Assembly: GCF_946892675.1 (NCBI RefSeq)
Contig: NZ_CAMPOV010000001.1
Location: 780,033 to 844,032, forward strand
DNA: 64,000 bases
Direction of reading: 5' to 3'
Source: Arthrobacter sp. Marseille-P9274
GTDB taxonomy: Bacteria > Actinomycetota > Actinomycetes > Actinomycetales > Micrococcaceae
The notes below the pieces were generated by a model, which was not told the origin of the DNA, did not search any database, and saw only the letters and a list, made by a program, of their open reading frames with translations. Positions 1 to 18,779 of this stretch are shown here, one piece after another (position 1 is the stretch's first letter; the number at the start of each line of letters is the position of its first letter). The position numbers and the translations under genes were made by a program.

Positions 1-2067
1 GGCCTAAACGAAGCCGTCGAGTACCACGTTGTCAATTCGCTCGGATGGCCGGCGCTGAGGCCTCTCCAACAGGCTGCCGTCGAGCCGATACGCTCAGGCG
101 ATGACTGCTTGCTCCTGGCTCCTACCGCCGGCGGCAAGACCGAGGCCGCGTTCTTTCCGTTGTTGTCCCAAGTGGTCGAGGAAAGCTGGCGCGGGCTTTG
201 CATTCTTTACATCACGCCGTTGCGTGCACTGCTAAACAATCTTCATCCGCGGCTTGAGGCCTACGCTGCCTGGACCGGGCACCGCGTCGGCTTGTGGCAC
301 GGCGACGTCGGGCCTACCCTACGCCGCCGGATGCTCAATGACCCGCCTGAGGTCCTTCTGACTACTCCTGAGTCGCTCGAAGCCATGCTGGTGTCGCGGA
401 GGGTGGATCACCGAGCCCTGTTCTCGAACTTACGGGCCGTCGTCATCGACGAAGTCCATGCGTTCGCCGGAGATGACCGTGGTTGGCATCTGCTCGCCGT
501 CCTGGAGCGTATTCAGCGCCTCGCTGACAAACCACTTCAGCGTATTGGCCTTTCCGCAACGCTCGGCAATCCGGACAGCATCCTTCGCTGGCTGCAAGGA
601 TCCGGCGTTGACAACGGCCGGCCGTCGAGAGTTATCGTCGAGGATCCAATCGCGAGTGCCCTGATGCCGGAAATAGTCCTTGACTATGTCGGTACGCTCG
701 ACAATGCAGCTGAAGTAATCTCCAGACTGCACCGGGGTGAAAAGCGTCTTGCGTTCTGCTCCTCGCGTTCAGATGCAGAAGAACTCGCTTATGCACTCCG
801 GCAGCGGAACGTCACAACATTCGTATCTCATGCATCCCTATCGGCGGATGAACGCAGGATCAGTGAAAGCGCCTTTGCCGAGTCGAGGGATTGTGTCATC
901 GTGTCTACTTCAACGATGGAACTGGGAATCGATGTGGGTGATCTGGACCGGGTCATTCAGATCGATTCGACGTGGACAGTATCTTCGTTCCTGCAACGTT
1001 TGGGACGGACAGGCCGTAGAACGGGCACCACACGCAACACGCTGTTCCTGACAACCACCCATGAGTCACTGTTGCGTGCTGCTGCCATTCTGCATCTGTG
1101 GTCGCAAGGCTTTGTTGAACCGGTTCTCCCCCCGCCGTCGCCCAACCATATAGCTGCTCAGCAACTGCTGGCCTTAGCCCTTCAGGAAAGCCAGGTTGGC
1201 GCTAATCGCTGGGCCCAGTGGTGGGGATCCTTACCGGTCATGGAGCAAGCCACAGAGATCCTGGAGTACCTCCGAAGTGCGGGATACCTGGAAACCGACG
1301 GGGGGATGTTGTTCATAGGTCCTGAAGCGGAGAAGAAATTCGGCCGGCGGCACTTTATGGACGTCCTCAGCGCGTTCACTGCCGCTCCTGAGCTCCGAGT
1401 CATCGCCGGTCAACGGGAGATTGGGTCTGTCTCTCCCCTGACGCTGGCACAGCGCAATACCAACGGCGAAGGCCTAAAGCTCCTCCTGTCAGGCCGGTCG
1501 TGGTGTGTGGAGGCCGTCGAGTGGGATAAGCACATCGTCCGTGTCAGTGAATTGAAGGAGAAAGGCCGCTCGAAGTGGGAAAGCGACCCGGTCCCTCAGT
1601 CGTTCGAACTGATGCAAGCTATGCGTAAGGTCCTGTTGGGCGCCACGCCGGATATCCAGCTCTCGAAGCGGGCCGTTCAACACCTGGCAGAAATCAGGGA
1701 CGAAGGCAGCAATTCCGTTGATGAGGCCGGGATAGTTGTTGAAAGAGGCGATAAGGAGCAGCGCGTCTGGACTTGGGCAGGTCTAAAGGCAAATCTCACA
1801 ATTCTCGCCGCACTAAACATCGAAGACTGCAAAGCCGATAACAGCAAGATCCGCCTGCCCTCCTGGGTACCACTGGATCAGGTGCGCGCGGCATCAAGTC
1901 GCGTGCACGACGCCTTCCCTGCGATAGCGCCTGACGCCGTTGAAGGTCTCAAGTTCTCTGCAGCGTTGCCTCTAGATCTTGCTGTCAGAACCTTGTCGAT
2001 CCGGACGAAAGACTCCGCCGCGGCAGCCGCAACGCTTGCACAGCCCAACGTCATGAGGCACCTCTGA
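1..2067 (+). CDS. Lhr-like superfamily 2 DEAD/DEAH helicase (5' partial)
   Basis: The reading frame is open from base 1, so the gene starts before the window; 688 residues are visible. A glutamine-rich Q-motif-like stretch precedes the Walker A motif APTAGGKT (about 119-142). The DEVH box lies near 447-458, SATLG near 555 and the arginine-finger motif QRLGRTGR near 993-1016. After the two RecA domains come a winged-helix segment and a small beta-barrel with the EIGSVSPL and LLLSGRSW signatures, which is the Lhr core layout. Lhr relatives are ATP-driven 3'-5' DNA or RNA:DNA helicases; many stand-alone ones sit in defence islands (BREX and others). The partner gene is probably outside the window on the left. 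It converges on the Nudix regulator with only 9 bp between stop codons. The helicase family is clear; the role is not. Confidence 0.85.
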   Translation, partial: GLNEAVEYHVVNSLGWPALRPLQQAAVEPIRSGDDCLLLAPTAGGKTEAAFFPLLSQVVEESWRGLCILYITPLRALLNNLHPRLEAYAAWTGHRVGLWHGDVGPTLRRRMLNDPPEVLLTTPESLEAMLVSRRVDHRALFSNLRAVVIDEVHAFAGDDRGWHLLAVLERIQRLADKPLQRIGLSATLGNPDSILRWLQGSGVDNGRPSRVIVEDPIASALMPEIVLDYVGTLDNAAEVISRLHRGEKRLAFCSSRSDAEELAYALRQRNVTTFVSHASLSADERRISESAFAESRDCVIVSTSTMELGIDVGDLDRVIQIDSTWTVSSFLQRLGRTGRRTGTTRNTLFLTTTHESLLRAAAILHLWSQGFVEPVLPPPSPNHIAAQQLLALALQESQVGANRWAQWWGSLPVMEQATEILEYLRSAGYLETDGGMLFIGPEAEKKFGRRHFMDVLSAFTAAPELRVIAGQREIGSVSPLTLAQRNTNGEGLKLLLSGRSWCVEAVEWDKHIVRVSELKEKGRSKWESDPVPQSFELMQAMRKVLLGATPDIQLSKRAVQHLAEIRDEGSNSVDEAGIVVERGDKEQRVWTWAGLKANLTILAALNIEDCKADNSKIRLPSWVPLDQVRAASSRVHDAFPAIAPDAVEGLKFSAALPLDLAVRTLSIRTKDSAAAAATLAQPNVMRHL

Positions 2068-2076
2068 CTTTGGGCC

Positions 2077-2769
2077 TTAGGGAAGCCTTATACGAAACAA
2101 CCTCGAGGGGCGGCCGCGGGCGCCGTCTGTCATTTCGCCCGTGGGGACGAGCTTGGGTTCCATGGCGCGGCGGAAGGTGTCGCGCTGCAGCTCCTCGCCT
2201 ATAACGGCCTGATGGATCATGCGCAGGTCGCGGAGAGTGAAAGCTCCTGTGAGCAGGCCCCCCGGGTCCGGCTCTGCAGCATAGGCGGCGCGGGCACGTT
2301 CGACAGCCTTGGTGACGATGGCGGGGTGGTCATACGGCAGGTCGGGAATCCGGTTGGCCACGGGCAGGAGTTTGACGCCCTCGGTGGCGAGGGCCGGCTC
2401 GAGTTCCTCCAGCGGCACGACATCCACGTGGGCGACGGAGAGGACCCAGCCGCGGGGATCGCGCTGCGGGTCATCGAAGACATGCAGCTGCTTTGGCTGG
2501 CGCCCGGAGACGTGGGCCTTCTCCCGCAGGGAGCGGAGGACGGCGTCGGCCAGCCGCTCCCCCTCGTGTAGGAACGTCCCTGGCAGGGCCCAGTCGTGCC
2601 CGGGCGCCTTGTCGTGCGAGACGGCCAGGACGCACAGTCCTTCGTTGGAAACTGTCAGTACCGCCGCGTCTACTGCTACCGAAGGGCGGGGATAGGCACT
2701 CAGGCTCTTGCCGGCGTCGTTAGTTGCTTCCACAGAATCAATTAGCTCACAGTTGCGCAAACTCTCCAA
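2077..2769 (-). CDS. nrtR: NrtR-type Nudix-domain transcriptional regulator
   Basis: It has an N-terminal Nudix fold starting at YPRPSVAVDAAVLTV, followed by a C-terminal winged-helix region (about residues 150-230), which is the NrtR architecture. NrtR proteins repress NAD-metabolism genes and release DNA on binding ADP-ribose or related nucleotides. The Nudix box is degenerate: where hydrolases have REUxEE this protein has RSLREK (about 79-84), and the first box glycine is replaced by T. It is therefore probably a sensor and not an enzyme. It is divergent from the ARPP-1 gene, with a palindrome in the 100-bp gap that is a likely operator for both directions. The start is uncertain: a TTG at 2769 is the longest option, and GTG codons lie downstream in frame. 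Confidence 0.8.
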   Translation of the reverse strand: MESLRNCELIDSVEATNDAGKSLSAYPRPSVAVDAAVLTVSNEGLCVLAVSHDKAPGHDWALPGTFLHEGERLADAVLRSLREKAHVSGRQPKQLHVFDDPQRDPRGWVLSVAHVDVVPLEELEPALATEGVKLLPVANRIPDLPYDHPAIVTKAVERARAAYAAEPDPGGLLTGAFTLRDLRMIHQAVIGEELQRDTFRRAMEPKLVPTGEMTDGARGRPSRLFRIRLP

Positions 2770-2774
2770 GCGCC

Positions 2775-2794
2775 CTACTCTCGAATAAGAGCAG
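2775..2794. promoter_or_regulatory. Candidate NrtR operator palindrome
   Basis: The sequence CTACTCTCGAATAAGAGCAG is an inverted repeat with 7-bp arms, a 6-bp spacer and one mismatch. It lies directly upstream of the regulator start and about 75 bp before the ARPP-1 start, where a divergent operator would be expected. Assignment to NrtR is inferred from position and symmetry only. Confidence 0.45.
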
Positions 2795-2869
2795 AAACGC
2801 TCAAAAGATTCGCCGCGGGGGATAGAACCTCAAAGCTGAGGAGAAAACCGGCGGCAGATTGGGGGAATC

Positions 2870-3754
2870 ATGAAGATCAACACTTTGCACATAGGGGCCG
2901 GAACCCGGCTCGGCCCGCTCACTCTCTTTCCGGTCTGGGCAGAAGGACGAGGCACCATCGGACTGGCAACCGGCGCGGCTGCGAACCTGGAGGTCACGGA
3001 GCTTGCCTCCGGCCCGCAGGTTTCCAAACTGACCGTCACCAACCGCGACACCCAGCCGGTCCTGCTGCTCGAAGGTGAGCTGCTGGAAGGCGGCCACCAG
3101 CACCGGGTCTGCGCCCGGGACATGATCCTGGCTCCGGGCGAAAGCCGCGACGTGGACACCTACTGCGTGGAGCAGGGCCGGTGGGGCGGCGCTTCGGCGC
3201 ACGGCCGGTCCGGACGGCGAGCCCCGCTGAACGTGCGGGCGGAACTGAATCGATCCGTCCGTGACCATGGGACGCAGGGCCGCGTCTGGGAACGGGTGGC
3301 CCGGTTCCAGGGCATGCACACCATGTCGGCCTCGGGCTCGCTGGTGGAGCACCTCGACGCCGGCACCCGTCACGCAGCCCTGAACCTGACGAAGCTGCCG
3401 GCACCGGTCGACGGCCAGCGCGGCGTCGTCGTTGGCTTTGGCGGCAAGGCCCTGATGCTGGAGCTCTTCGGCAGCCACAGGCTGTTTGCGCAGCACTACC
3501 GTTCCATGGTCGAGGCGGCGTGGCTGGACATCCAGGTCTCGGCCGGCCACGTGCCCAGCGTCGGGACGCCGGCGCAGTCGGCACGGGACCTGGCCGTCCG
3601 GGTGATGGAGCTCAGCCTCCCGCCACTCCCCCACGGCTTCGCCCAGAACGTCGGGCCGGTCGCGGTCAGCGGAATCTCGGCACCGGCCAAGACCGGTCCC
3701 GCCCTCGCACACTTGAGCGGCTGGGACACCCGCCACCCGATGATGGCGATCTAA
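2870..3754 (+). CDS. ARPP-1 domain protein (ADP-ribosylglycohydrolase/phosphatase-associated)
   Basis: This 294-residue soluble protein matches the ARPP-1 domain (ARG and Rhodanese-Phosphatase-superfamily-associated Protein). That domain was defined by comparative genomics as a companion of ADP-ribosylglycohydrolases and NrtR in NAD-utilising gene clusters. The N-terminal half reads as a beta-rich domain containing the family-like VLLLEGELLEGGHQHRV segment (about 63-80). The C-terminal half is mixed alpha/beta with no catalytic motif that I recognise. The ATG follows GGGGGAATC, a good ribosome site. It is the first gene of the + operon: the glycohydrolase-phosphatase gene starts 59 bp after its stop. 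No biochemical function is established that I know of; a role in ADP-ribose sensing or processing is inferred from context. Confidence 0.8.
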   Translation: MKINTLHIGAGTRLGPLTLFPVWAEGRGTIGLATGAAANLEVTELASGPQVSKLTVTNRDTQPVLLLEGELLEGGHQHRVCARDMILAPGESRDVDTYCVEQGRWGGASAHGRSGRRAPLNVRAELNRSVRDHGTQGRVWERVARFQGMHTMSASGSLVEHLDAGTRHAALNLTKLPAPVDGQRGVVVGFGGKALMLELFGSHRLFAQHYRSMVEAAWLDIQVSAGHVPSVGTPAQSARDLAVRVMELSLPPLPHGFAQNVGPVAVSGISAPAKTGPALAHLSGWDTRHPMMAI

Positions 3755-3813
3755 CCGCCGCCGCTCACCTCATCTCCTCAAACCCGCAGTACCCCCTAGC
3801 CTTTGGAGGCCCT

Positions 3814-5304
3814 ATGAACCTAAACTCCCTGCAGAACGACCGCGCCGCCGGCGTCCTGGTCACCCTCGCCGCCGGCGACGCCTTGGGCGCCGGCTACGAA
3901 TTCGGGCCGGCCCTGCCGGACAGCGCGCCGGTCAGCATGAAGGGCGGCGGACCGTTCGGCTTCGCCCCCGCCGAGTGGACGGACGATACGTCCATGGCGA
4001 TCGTCATCGCCGAGTCCCTGCTCGAGGCGGCCGGTGACGGGCGCGGCTTGGACGAGCCGACCAAGGGCGCGATGGCGCAGTCCTGGTCCGAGTGGGCGCG
4101 TGCCGCGAAGGACGTTGGCGTGCAGACCAGCTCGGTGCTGGGCCGCGCACGGCAGGCTGCCGCCACCGGCGGCCGCTCCAGCATCACGGCCGCCGACGCC
4201 TACGCCGCGTCCGAGCAGGTCCACCTTTCCTCCGGCCGGTCCGGCGGCAACGGCTCTCTCATGCGCACCGCTCCCCTGGCTCTGGCCTTCCTCGGCGCCG
4301 AACCGGCAGCGCTGCGGGACGCGGCGGTCGAGGTCAGTGCCCTGACCCACTTCGACCCCGAAGCCGGCGAAGCCTGCGCGCTCTGGTGCCTGGTCATCCG
4401 TCACGCGGTCCTCACCGGCGAACTCGATATTCGCGTCGGGCTGGAGTTGTTACCCGAAGACCGCGCCGTCCTCTGGGCGGGACGGATCGAGGCAGCCGAA
4501 GTTAAGTTCCCGCGGGACTTCACCCGCAACGGCTGGGTCGTCGAGGCGTTCCAGGCCGCATGGTCCGCAATAACGACGACGGCGGGCGCGGCTTCCGGTC
4601 CGGCCCACCTGCGTGCCGCCCTGGAGGCAGCGGTCCGCGGCGGCAACGACACCGACACGGTGGCCGCGATCGCCGGCGGACTGCTCGGCGCGGCCTACGG
4701 CTACACCGCAGTGCCGTTCGAATGGCGCCGAAAGCTGCACGGCTGGCCCGGATACACGGCGCGCGACCTGCAGCGGCTGGCCCTCCAGCTGGCCCGCGGC
4801 AAGGGGCGTACCGAGGGAAGCTGGCCCGACCTGCCGGTCTTCGACAACTCCGCCTACATCAGCCCGACGCGGACCGAGGTCGCCGAGCACCCGCTGGACT
4901 CGGGCGTGCTCCTCGGCGGCGCCCCGGCCCTGTCCCGGACCGACTACGACGCCGTCGTCTCCCTCTCCCGCGTCGGCACCGCCGAAACGCACGTGGACCC
5001 TGCCGACCACGCCTCTTTCTGGCTGCTGGACGAAGCAGGCGCTGACTCCAATGCGCATCTGGAATACGTGCTCCAGGAAGCCGCTGCCGCCGTCGCACTC
5101 TTCCGATCCGAAGGAAAGCGCGTGCTCCTGCACTGCGTCCGGATGGAAAGCCGTACTCCTACCGTTGCCGCCATCTACGGTGCCCTCATGACCGGCATGA
5201 CCCCCGAGGAAGCCCTCGATAAGGTCCGCGAGGTCTTGCCCAACGCCCGCCCGAACCACGGCTTCCGCCAAGCGCTCCGCCGGCTCTCACTGGAAGATCA
5301 GTGA
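3814..5304 (+). CDS. ADP-ribosylglycohydrolase fused to a dual-specificity-type Cys phosphatase
   Basis: This 496-residue two-domain protein starts at the ATG at 3814, which follows GGAGG with good spacing. Residues 1-320 form a DraG-type ADP-ribosylglycohydrolase: GDALGAGYEFG near 20, the metal-binding WTDDTSMA near 54, GGNGSLMR near 143 and GGNDTDTVAAI near 276 are all present. This domain should cleave ADP-ribose from a macromolecule or small molecule with two Mg ions. Residues about 365-496 form a rhodanese/phosphatase-superfamily domain with the P-loop HCVRMESRT (near 438-446) holding the nucleophilic Cys and the Arg. Linking both activities suggests a product such as ADP-ribose-1''-phosphate, or removal of ADP-ribose and phosphate in sequence. 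The next gene overlaps its stop codon (GTGA). A decayed copy of the last 130 codons lies at 14.7 kb. Confidence 0.88.
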   Translation: MNLNSLQNDRAAGVLVTLAAGDALGAGYEFGPALPDSAPVSMKGGGPFGFAPAEWTDDTSMAIVIAESLLEAAGDGRGLDEPTKGAMAQSWSEWARAAKDVGVQTSSVLGRARQAAATGGRSSITAADAYAASEQVHLSSGRSGGNGSLMRTAPLALAFLGAEPAALRDAAVEVSALTHFDPEAGEACALWCLVIRHAVLTGELDIRVGLELLPEDRAVLWAGRIEAAEVKFPRDFTRNGWVVEAFQAAWSAITTTAGAASGPAHLRAALEAAVRGGNDTDTVAAIAGGLLGAAYGYTAVPFEWRRKLHGWPGYTARDLQRLALQLARGKGRTEGSWPDLPVFDNSAYISPTRTEVAEHPLDSGVLLGGAPALSRTDYDAVVSLSRVGTAETHVDPADHASFWLLDEAGADSNAHLEYVLQEAAAAVALFRSEGKRVLLHCVRMESRTPTVAAIYGALMTGMTPEEALDKVREVLPNARPNHGFRQALRRLSLEDQ

Positions 5305-5666
5305 GAGCAAACCGGGAACGTGCCTGCCCGCACTGCGGGGGCCAGCGGCAGGACCGCTTGGTCCCGCGGAACTATCTGTGCGCGGCGTGCCAGGGCCCGG
5401 CGACGGATGTGCTGGGGCGCAAGGTGCGGCTGTTCAACGGGTTGGACAACGTTTCCGGCGTCCTCAGCGCGTCCGGCCTGGGCGCCGACCACGAGGACGG
5501 GACCGCCTGCGCGGAAGTGGTCGCCCGCAGTATCGCTTACGTGAATGGCACCGCCTACCGCCCCTGCGAAGGCCGGTTCGGCCGCGCGTTCCTGTCGCCG
5601 CTGCCCGAACCCGCGCCGCAGGCCTCAGTGACGGAGCTGCACCCGGAGAAGATGGACCTGTACTGA
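5301..5666 (+). CDS. Zinc-ribbon protein of the ADP-ribose operon
   Basis: This 121-residue protein begins with a GTG overlapping the stop of the glycohydrolase-phosphatase gene by 4 bp, so translation is coupled. It opens with a four-cysteine zinc ribbon (CPHC at residues 9-12, then CAAC about 15 residues later). A compact domain with LFNGLDNVSG and ARSIAYVNG follows, and the family is not known to me. Zinc ribbons of this kind commonly bind nucleic acid or serve as structural tags. Coupling suggests a stoichiometric partner or target of the upstream enzyme. I do not recognise the C-terminal domain. Confidence 0.65.
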   Translation: MRANRERACPHCGGQRQDRLVPRNYLCAACQGPATDVLGRKVRLFNGLDNVSGVLSASGLGADHEDGTACAEVVARSIAYVNGTAYRPCEGRFGRAFLSPLPEPAPQASVTELHPEKMDLY

Positions 5667-5708
5667 GGGACCGCGACGGCCCTCCCCGTACCTTGTGGAA
5701 GGAATCAT

Positions 5709-5978
5709 ATGACCGATGATCTAAGCCGTCCGGGCGATGCATTCATGTCCCGGGAGGAAGAGACCGACATCGAAACCCGCGCCGTACTAGGGCATGCGGA
5801 GACGACGACGGGCCAGCTGCTCGAAAAGTACGAGCAACTGCTGGAGCTCCAGAAAACCCGCCCCCAAGACGTTCCTCCGGGCGCGCTCGAGGCGCTCGAC
5901 GAGAAGCTCCAAGAGCACCTCGAGTGGATGAAGCCGTACGGGCTGGTCGCCGACGAGGATGCTCCCCGCCCGGACTGA
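5709..5978 (+). CDS. Small acidic helical protein of unknown function
   Basis: This 89-residue, strongly acidic protein is predicted to be mostly helical (ETTTGQLLEKYEQLLELQKT, then ALDEKLQEHLEWMK). An ATG follows GAAGGAATCAT. It lies 42 bp after the zinc-ribbon gene and 113 bp before the NERD-helicase gene, so it probably belongs to the same transcript. There is no signal peptide or membrane segment. The sequence is too short and biased for a family assignment. Being small and acidic, it could be an inhibitor or adaptor, but nothing in the sequence shows that directly. Confidence 0.55.
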   Translation: MTDDLSRPGDAFMSREEETDIETRAVLGHAETTTGQLLEKYEQLLELQKTRPQDVPPGALEALDEKLQEHLEWMKPYGLVADEDAPRPD

Positions 5979-6091: not shown

Positions 6092-7795
6092 ATGCGGTGC
6101 ATTCCGGAGGAGCCGGAGTTCAGCGAGGGGCAGTCGGCGGAGAAGGCCGTCTGGGAGAAGCTGCGCAGTTGTCTGCCCGACGACGTCGTCCTGGCCCACT
6201 CGGTGCAGGTCCGGCACGGGCGGGCCGAGCACGAGATCGACCTGCTGGTGCTGTGGCCCGGCATAGGGCTGGCCGCGATCGAGGTTAAGGGCGGGCTCGT
6301 CAGCATAGAAAACGGGCAGTGGTACCAGTCCGGCGGCAAGGACGGAAGGCGCTGCATCCAGAGTCCGGTCGCGCAGTCGCAGAGTTCGGCCCACGCCTTC
6401 AAGGCGTGGATCGGCGACCAGCTCGGCACTCCCCTGACCAGCCGCTTCGCCTACATGGTGTGCCTGCCCTACACGCACGTGCCCGCGGACTGGACCATGG
6501 CTGGGTGCCTGCGCTCCCTGGTTCTGGACGAAGGAGACCTGAATAACCCTGCCGAACAAATACGGCGCGCCATCGAGCAGGAAGGCAGCGGCGCCAGCCA
6601 GCTGGCGTCGTCGTACGCCGACCGCGTGGCCGCCAAGCTCGCCGGCACGCTGCAGCCCGACGAGGGGCCGCGCCTGAGCAGCCAAGAGCAGGAAGACGAT
6701 CAGGAGCGTTTGACTGCACAGCAGGCAGTTCTGCTATCGGCTACGCGGGATATTTCTCGCATCCGGTTCTCCGGCGGAGCAGGCAGTGGCAAGACCTGGT
6801 TGGCGGTGGAGAAGGCCCGCCGGTTGTGCCGCCAAGGCAAGCGCGTAGGCCTCTTTTGCTACAACAAGGGCCTCGGCCAGTACCTCCAGCACCAGGTGTC
6901 CGGTTGGCGGCATGCCAAGCCGGTGTTCGTGGGCGAATTCCACGAATATGTCCGCTCTCTAGGAGTGCCGGACGGCGACGGCCAAGCCTACTTCGACGTG
7001 GAGATGCCGCGCCTGCTCAGGGAAACCGCCGCCCTGCTGCCGGAACGGGACAAGCTCGACGCCGTCGTCGTCGATGAAGCGCAGGATTTCGCTCCTCTGT
7101 GGTGGGAAGCGTTGCTGGCCTGCCTGAAGGATCCTGCGTCGGGCGAGGTCTACGCCTTCATGGACGACCAGCAGGATGTCTACCGGCGCTGGGATGAGGC
7201 CGCCGTCGGCGCCGCCTTGGGCGCGGTGGATCTGGTGCCGATCCGGATCGACGACAATCTGCGCAACACCCGGCGCATTGCGGAAACCTTCGGCGTGTTC
7301 GTCGGCGAGCCCTTCAAGCCAAAGGGAAGTACCGGACTGCCCGTGCGGTTCGTCAGCTGTGCTACCGCGGACGCGCTGGATGCGGCCGGGGACTGCGTGG
7401 ACGCACTCATCGGCGAGGGCTGGGCCAGCAACCAGATCGCACTGCTGACCACCCGGAGCCGGCATCCCGAGCACCAGAGGCATTTCGAAGAGGGGACCGT
7501 CCCCGAATACTGGCGGGAGTTCCACGCCAACGAGGCCGAGTTCTACGGGCACGTGCTGGGCTTCAAGGGTTTGGAGCGCTCGGTCGTTGTCCTGTGCGTC
7601 AACGGGTTCAAGGAAGCCGCCCGCGCGCCGGAGCAGCTGTATGTGGGGCTGTCCCGGGCCCGCAGCCTGCTGGTCGTCGTCGGCGACCCGGCCCTGCTTG
7701 AGAAGGCCGGCGGAGCGCGGCTGGCCGCCGAACTAAAGCGCGCCGAGGCCTGGGACCCATATATGGAACCCGCTGTGGACATGGTGGCCGGATAG
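6092..7795 (+). CDS. NERD-domain UvrD/Rep-like helicase
   Basis: This 567-residue protein starts at the ATG at 6092. Residues about 15-125 are a nuclease-related (NERD) domain: HEIDLLVL followed by GLAAIEVKGG gives the D...ExK pattern of the PD-(D/E)XK fold. Residues 215-560 are a superfamily 1 helicase core: Walker A FSGGAGSGKT near 224-233, Walker B VVVDEAQDF near 325-333, FKGLERSVVVL near 490 and YVGLSRARSLLVVVG near 517 (motif VI). NERD-helicases are thought to process damaged or foreign DNA and recur in defence islands. It sits between the ADP-ribose module and the AddAB-like pair. The ATG is favoured over upstream in-frame starts because similarity begins just after it and GGGGGTC precedes it. 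Confidence 0.85.
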   Translation: MRCIPEEPEFSEGQSAEKAVWEKLRSCLPDDVVLAHSVQVRHGRAEHEIDLLVLWPGIGLAAIEVKGGLVSIENGQWYQSGGKDGRRCIQSPVAQSQSSAHAFKAWIGDQLGTPLTSRFAYMVCLPYTHVPADWTMAGCLRSLVLDEGDLNNPAEQIRRAIEQEGSGASQLASSYADRVAAKLAGTLQPDEGPRLSSQEQEDDQERLTAQQAVLLSATRDISRIRFSGGAGSGKTWLAVEKARRLCRQGKRVGLFCYNKGLGQYLQHQVSGWRHAKPVFVGEFHEYVRSLGVPDGDGQAYFDVEMPRLLRETAALLPERDKLDAVVVDEAQDFAPLWWEALLACLKDPASGEVYAFMDDQQDVYRRWDEAAVGAALGAVDLVPIRIDDNLRNTRRIAETFGVFVGEPFKPKGSTGLPVRFVSCATADALDAAGDCVDALIGEGWASNQIALLTTRSRHPEHQRHFEEGTVPEYWREFHANEAEFYGHVLGFKGLERSVVVLCVNGFKEAARAPEQLYVGLSRARSLLVVVGDPALLEKAGGARLAAELKRAEAWDPYMEPAVDMVAG

Positions 7796-8100
7796 GAGCG
7801 AGGGGACCCTCAGCCGGTTATCCGGTAGGTGGACTCCGAGCGTGACGAGCTGGTGCCAGAGCCCGTAATAGTTGGTGCGGCCGTCCATTTCCGCGACGGG
7901 TCCACCGTCGGCGGGGCTCAGTCCAAACGCACGAGGGCAGCGGCCAAAAGTGTCCGAAGCAGGTGTCACAGTGATAGCACCAAGAGCCGGCGCCGCGGTT
8001 GGGGGAACCGCCGGTCCAGGCACCGACCGTGGTAGAACGATTCAGGAACTGACCCCCGCTCCGCCATGGCGGCGCCGGGGGCTCGTTAGCAGGGGGAATG
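7796..8100. other. Intergenic leader before the AddB-like gene
   Basis: This 305-bp gap holds no convincing gene. Short open frames on both strands lack ribosome sites and family-like sequence. The downstream end contains the hairpin listed separately. A promoter for the AddB/AddA-like pair is expected here, but no consensus -35/-10 pair stands out. Confidence 0.5.
8053..8081 (+). promoter_or_regulatory. Strong nested stem-loop in the leader of the AddB-like gene
   Basis: An outer CCCCCG/CGGGGG pairing surrounds the perfect 12-bp palindrome CCGCCATGGCGG. The structure ends about 20 bp before the start codon. In RNA it would form a very stable hairpin close to the ribosome site, so it could be an attenuator, a processing site or a protein-binding site. 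No T-run follows. Confidence 0.45.
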
Positions 8101-10749
8101 ATGAGAGTTGAATTCGGCTGGTTTCTAGACCGCGCGCCTTGGGCCTTCAGGGCGCCGGGACTCAATGCGGTGCGCGTAGGCCGGCTGGGCCTGACAGCCC
8201 TGCTCCAAACGAGGCTCGGCACCACCCGACCGGAAACGACCCATACCCTCCGGGTCAACCAGTACGCAGCCAGGCTGCGCGCACTCGATGCTCCCGGCGC
8301 CTGGTTCCACCGGTCCTTCGCGGTGGACCCGTGGGGCACAGCCCAAGACCTCCTGTACGCCCGCGACGAACTCGTCGCCAACGGCTGGGACGGCTCGCTG
8401 CCGGATGACGAAGTCTCCGACCTGGTGCACAGCCTGGCCGGGCTCGAGCAGGTCGGGTTGCCCCTCGCGCCCTCCCTGGCCGACGACGTCTCCGGACTGG
8501 TATCCGCGCTGGACTCGCCGCTTCCGCTCGGCATCTCCGTCATCGAACTTCAGCACCCAAGCGCCGCCCTGCCAGCCATTTGGCGGACGATTCTCGGCAA
8601 GTTGGCCGCCCGCGGCGTGCGGGTCCAAGAGCCTCATCCCCAGGCCGAGGAGGCGCCCATTATCACCGTCCTGGAGACGGAGACCGAATGGGAGGCCGCC
8701 GAGCACGCCGCGCGTTGGCTCGCCGCCGGGGAACGCAAGGAGACCACCGCCGTCGTCGCCTCCCGGTCGACAGCCGTCCTGGACCAGCATCTGTCCAGCC
8801 ACGCGCTCCCCCGGCTCGGCATCAGCGAGAAGTCCGCCTGGCGGGCGCAGGACCAGATCGTCCCGCTGTTCATGGAAGTGATCTGGGGCCCGGTGAACGT
8901 GCAGCTTCTGGGCGAGTTCCTGTCCCTCCCGCTCTCCCCCGGGCCGGTCCGAGCCAAGGCCGCTCGGGCACTGCTGAAGGCCCTGGCCGAGGAGCCCGGA
9001 ACCGGAGGCGCGGCCTGGGAGGACGCCCTGCGGTCCATCGCCGACGACGAAGAACTCGGGCCGGGCATGGCCACCGAGCTGGACGCACTGTTCTCTGGCC
9101 AGCTTCTCGTCGAGGATAACGGCGTCAGCGGTGCCGACATCGTGGAAAAAAGCAGGTGGCTGGCCGGACGGCTGGGCAGCCTGGCCGCGCGCGACGAATC
9201 ATCGAAGACAACGTCCGCGCAGCTGCAGAGTCTGCTGACACTACTCGACGGCATGCCGCGTGTCTCCCGGCCCGACCTGCGGCGGATGATCTCCTCCGTT
9301 GTCACCGAGACCTCGAGCCCGTTTGCCGCCGCCGAGGCATCACCCTGGTTGCGGCTGAACCACCTGAACGAGCTGATGGACGACGTCGACGACGTCCTAT
9401 GGTGGGGCTTCCAGTCGAGCTCACCGGCGCCGGGCCGGCGCTGGGAGGAACGGGACGTCGCCGCGCTCGCCCGGCTCGGCGTCGAACTTCCCTCGCCAGA
9501 AAGCCTCGCGGCGCTGCAAGTGGCCCAAACGGTCACCGCCGCCAGCCGCTGTAAGAACCTGCTCATCATCCAGACCACGCATCAGGACGGCGAACGCGTC
9601 GAGGGCAATCCGCTGCTCGAGGCCCTTGTCGCGGCGCAGCCGGTCCTGCCCGGGCCAGACGGCCGGCAGCCGGGCATCGCCGAGCTCGTCAAGCGTCGGA
9701 AGGTCACTCCCGGGGACGTGAACAACGGCGCCGACTGGGCTTTGGCGGGCCGTTCGGCCCGGTTGGTACCGGTACCGGCGCGCGAAGCCGCGGCCCCGCC
9801 GTTGTCCTTCGACATCGGACAGCGCCCGGACCTCAGGCCGGATTCACTGTCCTTCTCACAGCTAGGCAACCTGATCGGATGCACGCTCGCCTGGGTGCTG
9901 GACAGGAAAGTGAGGCTGCACGTTGCGGACGCGGGCAGCGTGCCCGGCGGCAACAAGATGATAGGCACCTTCATGCACAAGGTGGTCGAGGAGCTCCACC
10001 GGGACCTCCAAGCCGCGAACCAGTCGGTGCCCACTCCAGATCAGGTGGCCGCGAAGATCGACCAGCTGCTGCCCCAGCTGGCGTCAGAACTTCTGTTGCC
10101 TGGCCGGCGCAGCGGGCTAAAGCACCTGCACAGGGTCGTCGGTGCCTCGGTGCTGAAATTCTTTACAACGCTCAGCAAGGCCGGCATCGTCATCCAGTCC
10201 ATGGAGCAGAAATTCGAGAAGGACTTGGCACTCATTGTGGACGGCGCCGAGGTGAGCATCCCCGTCACCGGGTCCGCCGACGTCGTCGGGATCGACGCCG
10301 ACGGTCAGCGGGCGGTCATCGACCTCAAATGGCACAACCGGGACAAGTACCGGCTGGCCGAAGTGCGCGAGGGCAAGTCCCTCCAGCTGACCCTTTACCA
10401 GTGGGCGCTGAACGACGACGGCGACGAGGTGCCGGACTCACCGACGGCGTACTATCTGCTGAAACAGGGCACGTTCGCATCGACGGCCGCGGCCTTCGGC
10501 AACCCAATCCAGGCCCAGCAGAAGCCGGCGGAGCTGTGGGGCAAGGCCATCGCGGCGGCCGAATTCTCCATCAACGAGGTGGTCAACGGCCGCGTGGCCG
10601 CCGGACCGCTGCTGGACGCCGCCCTGGCTGCCGCCGGCGAACCTTCGGGCGAAGAACTGGCGGAGGGGGATGGCCGGCTGTACGGGAAGCCGCCCTGCAA
10701 ATTTTGTGACTTCAGCAGGCTTTGCGGACTCAAGGGGGACTTTTCGTGA
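8101..10749 (+). CDS. AddB-like PD-(D/E)XK nuclease with probable Fe-S cluster
   Basis: This 882-residue protein resembles the nuclease subunit of AddAB-type helicase-nucleases. The first 550 residues are a helicase-like scaffold without a clear Walker A motif. The C-terminal third carries a RecB-family nuclease: GTFMHKVVEEL near 622 and VIDLKWHNRDKYR near 740 (catalytic D and K), followed by LQLTLYQWAL. One Cys near 594 (LIGCTLAW) and the terminal CKFCDFSRLCG form the four-Cys Fe-S staple of AddB-type nucleases. ATG at 8101 is preferred to the adjacent ATG at 8098 because of spacing to AGGGGGA. The stop overlaps the GTG of the AddA-like gene by 4 bp. The pair should degrade or resect double-strand DNA ends. 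Family placement is good; the specific role (repair or defence) is open. Confidence 0.82.
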   Translation: MRVEFGWFLDRAPWAFRAPGLNAVRVGRLGLTALLQTRLGTTRPETTHTLRVNQYAARLRALDAPGAWFHRSFAVDPWGTAQDLLYARDELVANGWDGSLPDDEVSDLVHSLAGLEQVGLPLAPSLADDVSGLVSALDSPLPLGISVIELQHPSAALPAIWRTILGKLAARGVRVQEPHPQAEEAPIITVLETETEWEAAEHAARWLAAGERKETTAVVASRSTAVLDQHLSSHALPRLGISEKSAWRAQDQIVPLFMEVIWGPVNVQLLGEFLSLPLSPGPVRAKAARALLKALAEEPGTGGAAWEDALRSIADDEELGPGMATELDALFSGQLLVEDNGVSGADIVEKSRWLAGRLGSLAARDESSKTTSAQLQSLLTLLDGMPRVSRPDLRRMISSVVTETSSPFAAAEASPWLRLNHLNELMDDVDDVLWWGFQSSSPAPGRRWEERDVAALARLGVELPSPESLAALQVAQTVTAASRCKNLLIIQTTHQDGERVEGNPLLEALVAAQPVLPGPDGRQPGIAELVKRRKVTPGDVNNGADWALAGRSARLVPVPAREAAAPPLSFDIGQRPDLRPDSLSFSQLGNLIGCTLAWVLDRKVRLHVADAGSVPGGNKMIGTFMHKVVEELHRDLQAANQSVPTPDQVAAKIDQLLPQLASELLLPGRRSGLKHLHRVVGASVLKFFTTLSKAGIVIQSMEQKFEKDLALIVDGAEVSIPVTGSADVVGIDADGQRAVIDLKWHNRDKYRLAEVREGKSLQLTLYQWALNDDGDEVPDSPTAYYLLKQGTFASTAAAFGNPIQAQQKPAELWGKAIAAAEFSINEVVNGRVAAGPLLDAALAAAGEPSGEELAEGDGRLYGKPPCKFCDFSRLCGLKGDFS

Positions 10750-13700
10750 ACGCGTTGGACAACATCACCATGGTTTCCGCCAGTGCGGGGACCGGTAAGA
10801 CCTACTACCTGACCAACGCGATCGCTTCGAAGATCGCCCAAGGTGTTCCCGCCTCGGCCATCATGGCCACCACCTTCACGAAGAAGGCCGCGGGCGAGCT
10901 CAGGGAGCGGATCGCCGCGAAGCTGCTGGACCACCCCGGCGACGGCCAGGACCCGGCACGGCTTCGGGACGCAGCCCAGCAGTTGTCCGTCAGCCTGATC
11001 GGCACGGTCAACGGCGTCTGCGGTCGGCTGCTGCAGGAATACGCGATCGACGCCGGCCTATCCCCTGCCCTAGAGGTGATCGCGGAGGAGGAGCAGGCGG
11101 GCATGTTCCGGCTCGCCACTGACGCCGTTCTGGCGGACTATGCCGGGCAGATCCTGCCTCTGGCGCAGCGGCTCAGCCAACTGGAGGACGACGGCGCGTG
11201 GGACAAGACGGTGCGCAGCATCTGCGACGCCGCCCGGAACAACCTGCTCGGACCGGAGGCTCTCGCGGAGTGCGCCGAGCGTTCTTGGGCCGGTTTCAGA
11301 GAGTTGCTGGATGAGCCTGCGACGGACGACCGGTCCAGCTGGCTGCATCAGTTCCGGCAGGCGCTGCCAGAGCTGGTGTCGGTCGCCCGGACCGGCGTGG
11401 ACGCTGCTGGGAAGCCGGTCAAGACTTCGGGCGGCAATTTCGCCGGCAAGTGGCCAGTGATCAACGACAGGATCTCGGCCATGGACACTGTCGAGAACAT
11501 TTCTTGGGAGCAGTGGCGCGGAGCTGTTCCGAGTGATTCCGCGGCTTGGATCAAGAGCCACTTCGAGGGGCCCCGCACCGCCGTCCGGGACGGCCTGCTC
11601 TCGAATCCGGCCTTCCACGACGACGTCGAGCAGTACATCCGTCTGGTCTTCGCCTGCGCCGCCGACTGCCTCAAGGCGTTCGCCGATTTCAAGCGCCTGC
11701 ATGGCCTGATGGACTTCGTGGACCAGGAGACCCTGGTGGTGGAACTGCTCCGCAACAACGAGGCCTTCCGCGCCTCCTTCGGCCAGCGGGTGAAGTTCCT
11801 GGTGGTCGACGAATTCCAGGACACCAGCCCGCTGCAGCTGGAGCTGTTCCTGCAACTGAGCCGCCTGGTGGATGAGGTTGTCTGGGTGGGCGACCCCAAG
11901 CAGGCCATCTACCAGTTCCGCGGGACCGACCCGGAGTTGATGGGCGCCGTCGTGGCAGGCGTAAGGCACGTCAAACGGCTTTCTTACTCATGGCGGTCCC
12001 AGCGGGCGGTCATTGACCTCTCCAACGCCGTGTTCGTGCCGGTGTTCGATCTCATTGGCATGAAGCCGGAGTCCGTCCTGCTGGATCAACCCGAGGATCA
12101 TGCCGACTGGCCCGAGGGGTCGTTGGAGGCTTGGACACGCGGGCAGTCCAAGGACGAGGACCGGCTGGCCGCCACCGCCGCCGGAGTCGCCGACCTGCTC
12201 CGCCGCCGCCCGGAGCTAAAGCCCTCCGACGTGGCCGTCCTGTGCCGCTCCAATGCCGATGTTTCCGCCATCGCAGCTGCGCTGGCCGATCTGGGGATCC
12301 GCGCGAGTGTTAATGAGCAGTCCCTCTTTGAGCCCCGCGAAATCCAGCTGGTCCGCGCCGCGCTCGCTTTCGTCGCAGACAGGGGGGACACCGTCGCGCT
12401 GACCGAAATCGTCGCCCTGCATCCGGATCACGCCGCACACGGGAACTGGCAGCAGGAGCTGCTCGGCGCCGTCGTGCCCGCCGACGCGCTGGCCGCATGG
12501 GCGGCGGACCCGCTCATCGCCTCGCTGTCAGCGTTGCGCGAACGAGCGGGCCGTGCCACGCCCACGGAGGTCTTCGAAGAGGTCGTTGGACTGCTGGGTT
12601 TGCCCGGGATGATCAAGTCCTGGTCCTTGCCGGCCACCCGGCTGCGCAACCTGGATGCCTTCCGAGCCAGCCTCAACAGCTACTACGAGTCCTGCAAGGC
12701 GCTCAGGACCCCTGGCACGCTGCGCGGCTGTCTCCGGTTCCTCGCAGAAGAGGAGCAGAAGGGCGCGGAGAACTCGGGCGACGACGTCGTCAACGTCTTG
12801 ACATACCACAAAGCCAAGGGACTCGAGTGGCCGGTGGTCATCATGGAGAGCCTGGACAAGAAAAGCGGCGCCAGTCCTTTCGGCACCGCCGTGGAGCAGG
12901 ACGGAGCCTTCGACTTGGCCGCGCCGCTCGGCGGACGCTGGATCCGTTTTTGGCCCTCACCGTTCCCGTATGGTGGGTCGCCGCTGGACGAGGCGGCTCG
13001 GAACACCGCGGTGGCCACCCGCAGCGAGGACCGCGAGCGCAAGAACCTGGCCCGCCTGATGTACGTGGGCATGACACGGTCGGTGGAGACGACGGTGCTG
13101 ACCTCGAAGACGGCGGAGCCCGCGGGCTTGAACCTGCTCGGTATCCCGGAGCTCATTTCCTGGTCCGGATCCGACGGCGCAGGGAGCATCCGCGTGGCCG
13201 GCACCGCAGCGCCGCTTCCGGGCACGGCATTCTCCTACGCTCCTGGGGAAGCGGAGCAGCGCGACAGAGCGGCCGCCGTAGAACAGTACACGGACGTGTT
13301 GCCGCAGACCGGCGACGAAGAGGTGCATCTGCCCGCGCGCATCCAAGCCAGCAAGCAGGCATCCACGGACGGCACCGCCGAAGTCGCCGAGAAGTCGGAT
13401 CTAGGCTCACGACTGGTTGCCCACGGCGATCAAAGCTGGGACGCCGTCGGCTCCGCAATCCACACCTACCTCGGGACGGCTTACGAGGCACTGTCCCGGG
13501 ACGAGCAACTGGGCTTGGCCGAGCAGATCGTCGACAGATGGAACGTTCGCCATCTAGTCGGCGCCAACATGCTGGTGAGGGCGGGTGAGCGCCTAGCCGA
13601 TTTCCTGGCCGACAACTACCCGGGGGCCGAGAGACAGCGGGAGATTCCGATCGGTTGGCGCAACGGTGCTGATCAGGTGATGGAAGGCTGGATTGACTTG

Positions 13701-13907
13701 CTCTTGGAGACGTCGGAGGGCTACGTCCTGGTCGATCACAAGAGCTATCCCGGCAAGGAACCCGCCGAGCACATCCGGGATAACTACCTCGGCCAAATGG
13801 ACGCATACCGCGAGGCTGTCTTCGCGGCCACGGGCAGGCCGGTGGTCGAGACGCTGATTCACTTGCCCGCGTTGGGGAAGGTTTACGAAGTCGTCACAGC
13901 AAGCTAA
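10746..13907 (+). CDS. AddA-like UvrD helicase-nuclease
   Basis: This 1053-residue protein is translationally coupled to the AddB-like gene (GTGA overlap). Superfamily 1A motifs are intact: Walker A SASAGTGKT near residues 11-19, TTFTKKAAGELRER (motif Ia), VVDEFQDTSPLQ near 353 (Walker B), VGDPKQAIYQFRG (motif III), YHKAKGLEWPVV near 686 and MYVGMTRS near 770 (motif VI). The C-terminus is a second RecB-type nuclease with EGWIDLLLE and VLVDHKSYPGKE near 994. With nuclease domains in both subunits, the pair matches AddAB and not RecBCD. These enzymes load on DNA ends, unwind and cut both strands. Carriage in an accessory island beside a NERD-helicase suggests a dedicated anti-foreign-DNA or repair module, which is inference. 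Confidence 0.85.
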   Translation: MNALDNITMVSASAGTGKTYYLTNAIASKIAQGVPASAIMATTFTKKAAGELRERIAAKLLDHPGDGQDPARLRDAAQQLSVSLIGTVNGVCGRLLQEYAIDAGLSPALEVIAEEEQAGMFRLATDAVLADYAGQILPLAQRLSQLEDDGAWDKTVRSICDAARNNLLGPEALAECAERSWAGFRELLDEPATDDRSSWLHQFRQALPELVSVARTGVDAAGKPVKTSGGNFAGKWPVINDRISAMDTVENISWEQWRGAVPSDSAAWIKSHFEGPRTAVRDGLLSNPAFHDDVEQYIRLVFACAADCLKAFADFKRLHGLMDFVDQETLVVELLRNNEAFRASFGQRVKFLVVDEFQDTSPLQLELFLQLSRLVDEVVWVGDPKQAIYQFRGTDPELMGAVVAGVRHVKRLSYSWRSQRAVIDLSNAVFVPVFDLIGMKPESVLLDQPEDHADWPEGSLEAWTRGQSKDEDRLAATAAGVADLLRRRPELKPSDVAVLCRSNADVSAIAAALADLGIRASVNEQSLFEPREIQLVRAALAFVADRGDTVALTEIVALHPDHAAHGNWQQELLGAVVPADALAAWAADPLIASLSALRERAGRATPTEVFEEVVGLLGLPGMIKSWSLPATRLRNLDAFRASLNSYYESCKALRTPGTLRGCLRFLAEEEQKGAENSGDDVVNVLTYHKAKGLEWPVVIMESLDKKSGASPFGTAVEQDGAFDLAAPLGGRWIRFWPSPFPYGGSPLDEAARNTAVATRSEDRERKNLARLMYVGMTRSVETTVLTSKTAEPAGLNLLGIPELISWSGSDGAGSIRVAGTAAPLPGTAFSYAPGEAEQRDRAAAVEQYTDVLPQTGDEEVHLPARIQASKQASTDGTAEVAEKSDLGSRLVAHGDQSWDAVGSAIHTYLGTAYEALSRDEQLGLAEQIVDRWNVRHLVGANMLVRAGERLADFLADNYPGAERQREIPIGWRNGADQVMEGWIDLLLETSEGYVLVDHKSYPGKEPAEHIRDNYLGQMDAYREAVFAATGRPVVETLIHLPALGKVYEVVTAS

Positions 13908-13938: not shown

Positions 13939-14571
13939 ATGGTACGAACTGGCAGACGTGGCGTAGCGCTCGAGCAGCTCTTGTCTCGCTCCGGCTACGA
14001 GTCTGTGGCTACCCCGGGAGCACCTCGCATTTCTGATCTCTCCCCGGGACTTGCGACCGATGTACTGGACCTCTATAGGCAACTCGGCGGAGTAGAAGAA
14101 GCTCCTAACTTGCGTCCGGGCTCTTGGGACCTTGCATTCAAGGGCGGGCTCGTCGTCGAGCTCGACGAGGAACTCCACTTCAACCGCTACCGCACGCTGA
14201 CTCTCGAGCCCAACTGGTCGAAACGACTTCCTTGGCACGCCGATTATTGCCGGTTCTCAATGGCTCACGAGCCCCTCTGTCTGAGCGCTGGACGATGGGG
14301 CAAACGGTGGACGAATCCGTCCTGCGAGTCGATGTTCGGACTACCAGCTACGCCGGGTGTACTCAGTGCAGGCGGAGCTCCTAGATGGAAGCAGCGTGCC
14401 CTCTACGACGCCATGAAAGACGCGGCGTCCTTGTCAGATCCACGCATTCGGCTAGCGAGGATCTCCGTTTTCGATCGCATAGCAGGGGTTAAAGTTTCCT
14501 CTCTGCTCGACGGTTCGGCGACCGTCGGCCCCCAAGCCATGGCCCGTTTCGTAGAAGGAAGATCGAATTGA
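13939..14571 (+). CDS. Unrecognised protein, possible nuclease-like fold
   Basis: This 210-residue protein lies 31 bp after the AddA-like gene on the same strand. The central segment GSWDLAFKGGLVVELDEELHFNRYR (about residues 57-81; only key residues are meant) carries an acidic D...ELDEE pattern on predicted beta strands, reminiscent of Vsr/PD-(D/E)XK endonuclease-like enzymes. The rest is rich in Trp and Arg (SKRLPWHADYCRF, GRWGKRWTNP). I cannot place it in a named family with certainty. Its position makes it a candidate accessory nuclease of the AddAB-like pair. Base composition is slightly lower in G+C than its neighbours. Confidence 0.55.
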   Translation: MVRTGRRGVALEQLLSRSGYESVATPGAPRISDLSPGLATDVLDLYRQLGGVEEAPNLRPGSWDLAFKGGLVVELDEELHFNRYRTLTLEPNWSKRLPWHADYCRFSMAHEPLCLSAGRWGKRWTNPSCESMFGLPATPGVLSAGGAPRWKQRALYDAMKDAASLSDPRIRLARISVFDRIAGVKVSSLLDGSATVGPQAMARFVEGRSN

Positions 14572-14710
14572 CCGCACGCATCCCAGCCGAGAAAGGTAGG
14601 GCAAAGGTTTCGCGCCCGCTTGGAGCATTTTCTCCCAGACGTGTTCTGAATTCTGGGCTCCCGAAGCTACATATCAAGCTTGGCTGCCCACTATTTCATT
14701 AGCCAGTTTC

Positions 14711-15097
14711 CTCGGCGGTTGCCCGGCGCTGTCCCGGACCGACTACGACGGCGTCGTTTCCCTCTCCCGCATCTGCACTTCCGAAACTCACGTGGACCCT
14801 GCCGACCATGCCTCGTTCTGCCTACTGGACGAAGCCGGCGCCGACTTCAACGCGCACCTGGACTACGTGCTCCGGGAAGCCGCTGCCGCCGTCGCACTCT
14901 CCCGTTTCGAAGGAAAGCGCGTCCTGCTGAACTGCGTCCGCATGGAAAGCCGCACCCTCACCGTCGCCGCCCTCTACGGCGCGATGGTCACCGGCATGAC
15001 CCCCGAAAAAGCCCTCGTTAAGGTCCGCGCCGCCCAACGCCAGCCCAAACCCCGCTTCCGCCTCGCGCTGCACCGCCTCTCACACGAGCCCCGATGA
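14711..15097 (+). pseudogene. Remnant copy of the glycohydrolase-fused phosphatase domain
   Basis: About 129 codons are a near copy of the C-terminal phosphatase domain encoded at 4918-5304, beginning at LGGCPALSRTDYDGVVSLSR and running to the stop codon. There is no start codon with a ribosome site and no glycohydrolase domain. The P-loop reads NCVRMESRT where the parent has HCVRMESRT; the nucleophilic Cys is kept but the invariant His is lost. Another substitution is V/G to I/C in the segment after SLSR. It is on the same strand as the parent, so it forms an imperfect direct repeat around the 5.3-14.6 kb cassette. Confidence 0.85.
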
Positions 15098-17218: not shown

Positions 17219-17274
17219 TCCATACAGCAAAGGAACGCCAGCACCCACACCAACTACAGGCCGAGGAGGTCGCC

Positions 17275-18201: not shown

Positions 18202-18248
18202 GACAAGCCTGCAGGCTTCGAACAATCTGAACCTGGAAAGGAAAACTG

Positions 18249-18731: not shown

Positions 18732-18779
18732 TGAGGACCGGAACAGGACCGATAGAAGTTTGTAGTTGGGGGAACAAAA

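Follow-up and report, generated by a model that had tools for sequence, protein, structure and literature searches.

An ADP-ribosylglycohydrolase-centred operon of Arthrobacter sp. Marseille-P9274 as an actinobacterial copy of a predicted host conflict system

In a 64,000-nt stretch of the Arthrobacter sp. Marseille-P9274 genome (assembly GCF_946892675.1, contig NZ_CAMPOV010000001.1, positions 780,033 to 844,032 of the forward strand; hereafter the window), we identified an operon that encodes an NrtR-type regulator, an ARPP protein and an ADP-ribosylglycohydrolase (ARG) fused to a phosphatase. By its gene content, this locus is an actinobacterial copy of the already described ARG-centred host conflict system (Iyer et al., 2022). 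The genes of the locus were confirmed to be real, and the system runs past position 5978, up to 19813 in the window. We favour, at a probability of roughly 0.55, the reading that the operon is an ADP-ribose-inducible system that would remove ADP-ribosyl marks and deploy nuclease effectors. The core of the locus and the genes directly following it are:

2077..2733, minus strand: NrtR-type repressor with Nudix and winged-helix domains, 218 aa (Pfam NUDIX and NrtR_WHD, gene call)
2742..2761: putative operator 1, TTAGCTCA-CAGT-TGCGCAAA, 2/16 mismatches to the conserved dyad
2786..2805: putative operator 2, weaker, 5/16 mismatches, where relatives have their second site
2870..3754, plus strand: ARPP (PF20208), 294 aa (Pfam, alignment, structure model)
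3814..5304, plus strand: ARG (residues ~1-310) and Cys-dependent, dual-specificity-type phosphatase (~341-496) (Pfam, active-site motifs)
5301..5666, plus strand: zinc-ribbon half-protein, 121 aa, four Cys, TY-Chap3 half missing (homologue comparison)
5666..5685: putative recombination junction (DNA homology comparison)
5709..5978, plus strand: small acidic protein, 89 aa (family search, dN/dS)
6092..7795, plus strand: NERD (restriction endonuclease-like) domain and UvrD-type helicase, a recurrent effector-like partner (Pfam, partner counts)

According to section 3.8 of PMC9503650 (Iyer et al., 2022), ARG-centred systems are widespread and combine a regulator of the Nudix or WYL type, a phosphatase that is joined to ARG or encoded next to it, and an ARPP with a conserved Cys and Gln; the paper also lists TY-chaperones and restriction endonuclease (REase)/helicase accessories, and proposes that these systems counter viral ADP-ribosylation. 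The Arthrobacter locus resembles them in its Nudix-helix-turn-helix (HTH) regulator, its ARPP, which has the Cys and the Gln, and its ARG, which has intact metal-site motifs and is fused to a phosphatase of the rhodanese-phosphatase superfamily, as well as in its REase/helicase accessories and in the TY-Chap chaperones of its relatives. It differs in that TY-Chap3 appears to have been lost here from a zinc-ribbon fusion, the chaperone being an often present, optional feature of the published systems. The terms 'RNase H', 'Zn-ribbon', 'zinc ribbon', 'NERD' and 'BREX' do not occur in the main text of PMC9503650. A first-pass annotation of this DNA, made from the sequence alone, had stated that the association of NrtR, ARPP and ARG is known; this is right, although Iyer et al. 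(2022), rather than de Souza and Aravind, is the source to cite.

The match of the 294-aa protein to ARPP-1 (PF20208; E 7.4e-59, 200 bits) confirmed the family assignment of the first-pass annotation. Residues C99 and Q77 were invariant in all 16 aligned sequences, the window included. The structure model of ARPP scored a pLDDT of 85.8 and a pTM of 0.87, and a profile search against solved structures gave nothing useful (best E 0.39). The fusion protein, whose start was placed at ATG 3814, matched ADP_ribosyl_GH (PF03747; E 4.2e-51) and, in its C-terminal part, a DSPc-like domain (E 1.6e-7; its 31.6 bits fall slightly short of the Pfam cut-off of 33.5) that carries a CX5R P-loop and is related to DUSP12 (phmmer E 1.3e-4); a glycohydrolase fused to a P-loop Cys phosphatase had thus been read correctly. 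In 13 proteins with ARG and the dual-specificity-type phosphatase (DSP), the ARG residues E29, T56-D57-D58-T59, H179, D279, D281 and T282 were invariant, phosphatase residues R447 and D406 were kept in all 13, and C441 in 12. The closest solved relatives of the ARG domain include the ADP-ribosyl-dinitrogen reductase hydrolases 6dre and 3g9d, and its top NCBIfam match, at 110 bits and short of the cut-off of 490, was the ADP-ribosylarginine hydrolase Tri1. The domain resembles the Tri1, DraG and ARH3 ADP-ribosylhydrolases in its alignment with solved members and in its TDDT and DxDT motifs, but differs from them in the C-terminal Cys-phosphatase and in that no immunity-gene or DraT context was seen.

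The same arrangement recurs in relatives. An ARG match was present at 45 loci among the best 80 of 266 ARPP relatives (own genome not among them; flanks of at most 10 kb, 5 of the 45 stretches being shorter than 20 kb), and neighbours were counted there within distance limits and, unless stated otherwise, over at least half of the query. ARG lay within 3 kb downstream of ARPP at 44 of these loci, a minus-strand NrtR within 1 kb upstream at 43, and DSP was present at 40, with all three at 39. The loci come from Arthrobacter and its kin, Homoserinimonas, Salinibacterium and Bifidobacterium-labelled metagenome-assembled genomes, and also from Blastococcus, Modestobacter and Geodermatophilus, among others; the remaining 35 of the best 80, mostly distant ARPPs, had no ARG by these queries. 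Among 295 genomes of the family, ARPP was present in 24, an ARG-DSP relative (E 1e-50) in 44 (reaching the phosphatase in 27, as judged from match ranges), and ARPP and the fusion together in 21. This patchy carriage of ARPP speaks against a housekeeping role, in which the operon would clean up toxic soluble ADP-ribose derivatives, such as ADP-ribose-1''-phosphate from tRNA repair, unrelated to phage and placed in a defence island by chance. NrtR, the phosphatase and ARPP do each suggest small ligands of the ADP-ribose or ribose kind, in line with an inference drawn in section 3.8 of PMC9503650; however, the accessory genes are rearranged, nuclease-helicases are coupled to the core and, as a lesser argument, BREX genes adjoin it, and we regard the housekeeping role as improbable.

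Pfam NUDIX (E 2.5e-8) and NrtR_WHD (E 6.5e-12) matches on the minus strand bear out the divergent NrtR regulator of the first-pass annotation, and the protein is related to PDB entry 3gz5 (phmmer E 6.4e-21). A second NrtR_WHD gene is present elsewhere in the genome. The degenerate Nudix box that had been pointed out is indeed there but is not distinctive, because the box of MsNrtR from Mycobacterium smegmatis also carries substitutions; that protein showed no ADP-ribose hydrolase activity, and its DNA binding is disrupted by ADP-ribose (PMC6800001, in excerpt). With the NrtR proteins of NAD metabolism (MsNrtR; PDB 3gz5), the regulator shares a degenerate-box Nudix domain joined to a winged helix, a gene divergent from the adjoining operon and a palindromic operator. 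The operators themselves are different, TTAGCGCA-N4-TGCGCTAA here and GTTTTCGA-N7-TCGAAAAC for the mycobacterial NrtR box, and so are the neighbours, ARPP/ARG here and nadABC in mycobacteria (PMC6800001, in excerpt).

Two copies of the conserved dyad TTAGCGCA-N4-TGCGCTAA lie between the NrtR and ARPP genes. The consensus was derived by eye from the very regions in which it was scored, namely a Micrococcaceae set of 27 regions (26 of the 29 loci L073-L101, plus the window) and 20 others; L075 and L076 (no divergent NrtR there) and L097 (ARPP match starting late) were left out. At a limit of 4/16 mismatches, the dyad was found throughout the Micrococcaceae set (27 of 27) and in 11 of the 20 others, compared with none for a reversed control pattern and with 0.21 and 0.15 matches, respectively, expected from shuffles. 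Mismatches ranged from 0 to 3/16 across the 27 regions, and in this set the starts of the two dyads were 44-48 bp apart. The Zhihengliuella locus L107, which lacks the operator site, was counted among the others; we take this genus to belong to the Micrococcaceae as well. In the Marseille-P9274 genome, the dyad pattern at 0-1 mismatch occurs here only. The palindrome at 2775-2794 on which the first-pass annotation had settled does exist as an imperfect repeat with 6/8 outer pairs, as palindromic as operator 1 (6) and slightly more so than operator 2 (5), but it is kept in two congeners only: over 14 scored positions it shows 2 mismatches in L073 and L074 and 4-7 in 24 of the 27 regions. These comparisons suggest that the conserved putative operator is the dyad at 2742-2761, of which 2786-2805 is a weaker copy, and not the palindrome at 2775-2794. 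Since the conserved operator occupies 2742-2761, the NrtR gene more likely starts at GTG 2733, as placed by a basic gene caller that had been trained on genes of the window, than at TTG 2769, the start in the open reading frame (ORF) list. No promoter or terminator signal exceeded the level of shuffled sequence.

The gene most consistently associated with the ARPP module is the NERD-UvrD helicase. Relatives at E <=1e-60 were found in 63 of the 295 family genomes, comprising 20 of the 24 with ARPP versus 43 of the 271 without (Fisher 1.4e-11, kinship ignored); in a comparison of 28 genomes, 16 had the helicase no more than 15 kb from ARG. At the named loci it was present over at least half its length near 28 of 45 (one at 22% identity), or near 29 if any match is counted. 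These counts identify the helicase as the strongest recurrent partner of the module. Together with AddA-like relatives over half the query and RNase H-like proteins, each near 6 of the 45 loci, they also fit the main rival explanation, that of nucleic-acid end repair. Here, ARG would strip ADP-ribose from DNA or RNA at 5' or 3' phosphate ends; the end thus exposed, or ADP-ribose-1''-phosphate, would be cleared by the phosphatase, and end processing would fall to the NERD helicase, the AddAB-like nuclease and the RNase H-like protein. The module would then be a repair or nucleic-acid defence system rather than one for protein de-modification. A precedent is the bacterial ARH-like SCO5809, which reverses phosphate-end RNA ADP-ribosylation, although ARH-type enzymes are inactive on RNA ADP-ribosylated at the guanosine base or the 2'-OH (PMC11833690, in excerpt). 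Given further that 6dre, 3g9d and Tri1 are protein-acting by name, and that the Pfam scan revealed no nucleic-acid-binding domain in the fusion, we consider end repair a possibility clearly behind the removal of ADP-ribosyl marks coupled to nuclease effectors.

In this favoured mechanism, the NrtR-type repressor would hold the operon off by occupying the two dyad operators that separate its gene from ARPP. ADP-ribosylation by an invader, or NAD+ breakdown, would raise the level of ADP-ribose or a derivative, which we infer to be the ligand that displaces the repressor. The ARG domain would then hydrolyse ADP-ribose off modified macromolecules, the fused Cys-phosphatase would take phosphate off the released product or the acceptor end, and ARPP would handle the ribose product, while the NERD-UvrD helicase and the AddAB-like helicase-nuclease would attack nucleic acid as a second line. 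Sensing and removal of ADP-ribose derivatives, which the first-pass annotation had also supposed, agrees with the prediction in section 3.8 of PMC9503650 and is a putative function. On this reading, the ARPP and ARG-phosphatase pair is a predicted bacterial answer to viral ADP-ribosylation, and the locus offers a compact, testable unit: its repressor is dedicated, its operator is defined and conserved, the motifs of its fusion enzyme are intact, and a helicase is tied to it by statistics.

Several observations weigh against this reading. With only 80 bits against the cut-off of 400 of the NCBIfam equivalog NF050029, the regulator is related to that family but is not that equivalog, so its ligand may differ. 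The dyad was not detectable at the 4/16 limit in 9 of the 20 regions outside the Micrococcaceae set. A looser dyad pattern, scored in the window only, was not beyond chance, with two matches that are one place on both strands, where 17 of 100 shuffles reach two; genome-wide, the dyad pattern at up to 2 mismatches gave three matches at two places versus two for the reversed control, for which reason only the strong site (2742-2761) carries weight. One ARG-phosphatase (L040, 5340-6869) has Trp in place of the catalytic Cys in an otherwise kept P-loop. Four of the 24 ARPP genomes lack the NERD helicase. The BREX adjacency was not repeated among the 45 relatives, with PglZ near none and PglX and BrxHI near one and three, respectively, by matches of less than half the query. 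SIR2-like genes lie near 15 of the 45, so the premise that no NAD-consuming enzyme is coupled is not general. Finally, a literature search, mostly without subscription papers, found no biochemistry on ARPP, DUF6569 or ARG-phosphatase, as the first-pass annotation had also stated for the module.

The zinc-ribbon and acidic proteins had been regarded by the first-pass annotation as undescribed parts of the module. The 4-bp GTGA overlap that it reported between the fusion gene and the 121-aa ORF is present in the window and also kept in genome G003, codon-position GC is gene-like in both small ORFs, and the dN/dS ratio of 0.26 against G003 indicates purifying selection on the zinc-ribbon protein. 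Its homologues in G003, G210, G220 and G230, however, are 240-252 aa long. The second half of the G003 homologue is TY-Chap3 (PF22552, E 3.1e-15), and the four-Cys ribbon (CPHC..CAAC) is kept in the alignment; in a structure model of the complete G003 homologue (pLDDT 77, pTM 0.57), a predicted helix at 115-134 lies where the second half begins. No significant homology to TY-Chap3 is left in the window, and a family search found none in the Marseille-P9274 genome, with control genomes silent too. Neither SseB nor vWA chaperones appeared among the 17 window proteins, a part of its genes, that were scanned against Pfam. Homologue comparison thus indicates that the 121-aa protein is the N-terminal half of a zinc ribbon-TY-Chap3 chaperone, truncated here. 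Because TY-Chap3 is already listed for the ARG system and the protein is truncated, it is not an undescribed ARPP partner, a correction that spares the pursuit of a truncated 'partner' as an undescribed protein. The 121-aa sequence itself gave no Pfam zinc ribbon over cut-off and nothing useful against solved structures (best E 0.34); a transposase or FmdB-type ribbon was rejected, as no match passed the cut-off.

The distribution of the ribbon tells the same against partnership. With two of seven genomes dropped as weak (G112 and G241, E ~4.5e-4), it occurs in 2 of the 24 ARPP genomes and 3 of the 271 others, and at none of the 45 named loci. The three others are G210, where ARG, NrtR, DSP and NERD helicase are present and ARPP has no match, and G220 and G230, whose surrounding 15-kb stretches hold no ARG match. 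Ribbon-less TY-Chap3 domains lie near 13 of the 45 loci. Across the class, a zinc-ribbon/TY-Chap3 model matched 13 of 394 genomes, with 11 of 14 match rows in the TY-Chap3 half; the ribbon half gave, besides the window, two weak rows only (G512 and G457), and there was no plasmid match. A different TY-Chap protein was seen beside the G005 ARG operon, where a 665-aa protein (L035, 4041-6035) ends in TY-Chap2 (PF22553, 3.8e-24).

The acidic protein is under purifying selection as well (dN/dS 0.34 against G002 and 0.22 against G005). Strong matches were found in 3 of the 295 family genomes, with two of five dropped as weak (G045 and G109, E 0.004-0.005). All three carry ARPP, as the first-pass annotation would have it, but they belong to a single genus, and in each the acidic gene immediately precedes a copy of the NERD helicase; in G005 the adjacent copy is fragmentary, with a complete one at a greater distance. 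The acidic protein therefore appears to travel with the NERD-UvrD helicase cassette. That the two small proteins are genuine additional subunits of the module, for which their coding character, the overlap kept in G003 and the three ARPP genomes of the acidic protein would speak, is very doubtful in view of the single genus, the NERD neighbour, and a ribbon that is truncated, nearly absent from ARPP genomes and present without a nearby ARG in G220 and G230.

DNA comparison locates the break between the two proteins. Homology between the window and G003 spans the ribbon and ends at 5665, inside the stop codon of the window gene; from 5685 on, the window again aligns with A. crystallopoietes, at a place ~5.5 kb further down the operon of that species. 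Over 2.1 kb, identity to A. crystallopoietes is 92.7% in the acidic-NERD stretch, whereas the core reaches 83% and the genes at 16882-19805 reach 82-83%, and synonymous divergence agrees (helicase 0.18, acidic protein 0.26, the three core genes 0.50-0.63). The 20 bp at 5666-5685 are for this reason best read as a recombination junction between G003-like and A. crystallopoietes-like arrangements. We infer that the zinc ribbon is a remnant or stand-alone half of a zinc-ribbon/TY-Chap3 adaptor, whose chaperone would have been lost when the acidic-protein/NERD-helicase cassette was spliced in; the locus thereby points to cassette exchange inside the operon. More speculatively, the operon might confer an 'unmask and destroy' immunity, an improbable alternative in which the ARG-phosphatase would remove ADP-ribosyl-phosphate caps made by the invader on DNA or RNA ends and co-regulated NERD, AddAB-like and RNase H-like enzymes would gain the exposed ends, with ADP-ribose as inducer and the zinc-ribbon/TY-Chap3 adaptor as an exchangeable cassette replaced here.

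The other features of the neighbourhood are:

8098..10749, plus strand: AddB-like protein with a PD-(D/E)XK nuclease domain (Pfam)
10746..13907, plus strand: AddA-like UvrD helicase with a PD-(D/E)XK nuclease (Pfam)
13939..14571, plus strand: DUF7255 protein, with a relative near one ARPP locus
14645..15088, plus strand: degenerate second copy of the phosphatase domain, ARG part absent
16967..17218, plus strand: small protein of cluster c7, which relatives also have near ARG
17275..18201, plus strand: RNase HI-fold protein, 308 aa (Pfam RNase_H 7.9e-6), recurrent near ARG
18249..19813, plus strand: HTH/zinc-finger-like protein (c9) and two small proteins (c14, c15)
1..2067, plus strand: BrxHI helicase, frame open at the window start (PADLOC BrxHI, 872 bits)

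Partial AddB-like matches (less than half the query) lie near 4 of the 45 named loci, and HNH-repeat-like/sigma-HTH proteins near 15. The Pfam matches of c9, HTH/zinc-finger-like, are below cut-offs. In the second phosphatase copy, which is 70% identical to the ARG-linked domain, the His-Cys of the P-loop reads Asn-Cys. The window genes at 18249..19813 are collinear with the A. crystallopoietes ARG operon. That the degenerate copy precedes accessory genes collinear with this operon suggests at least one additional rearrangement. The collinearity was observed for the whole of 16967-19813, where the RNase HI-fold protein stands with its small neighbours.

Neither ADP-ribosyltransferase nor SIR2 domains were found among the 17 scanned window proteins. 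In several other genomes, a SIR2-like protein is placed directly after ARG-DSP; it is a protein of ~520 aa in L036 (3859-5418), the one checked for its SIR2-like domain (PF13289), with relatives in L039, L043, L045 and L046, and is possibly a NAD-consuming partner, contrary to the published premise of no coupled sirtuin.

Upstream, the operon adjoins a BREX type 2 (Pgl) system, with pglW, pglX, brxC/pglY, pglZ and brxD just before the window (L002, 3458-20000) and brxHI as the last gene (window 1-2067). GC content is ~58-59% in brxHI versus 71-73% at 3001-5000. A BREX-linked module was rejected on the PglZ count among relatives; BREX is an independent system as far as seen, and its adjacency is a defence-island neighbourhood only.

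A phage-borne ARPP was likewise rejected, as 50,697 phage records contained none; in plasmids, ARPP was found in two records, both from Pimelobacter. Phage ARG, seen in 26 records, lacks the phosphatase part: none of the 26 reaches 80% of the query, and 10 among the matches listed cover 64%. Over its length, the viral contig L153 shares 99.99% identity with the A. bambusae stretch L076, which has no ARG match. ARPP without an ARG match is encoded at 3016-3933 of L153 and at 10001-10918 of L076, and the A. bambusae stretch has, by eye, recombinase-like proteins.

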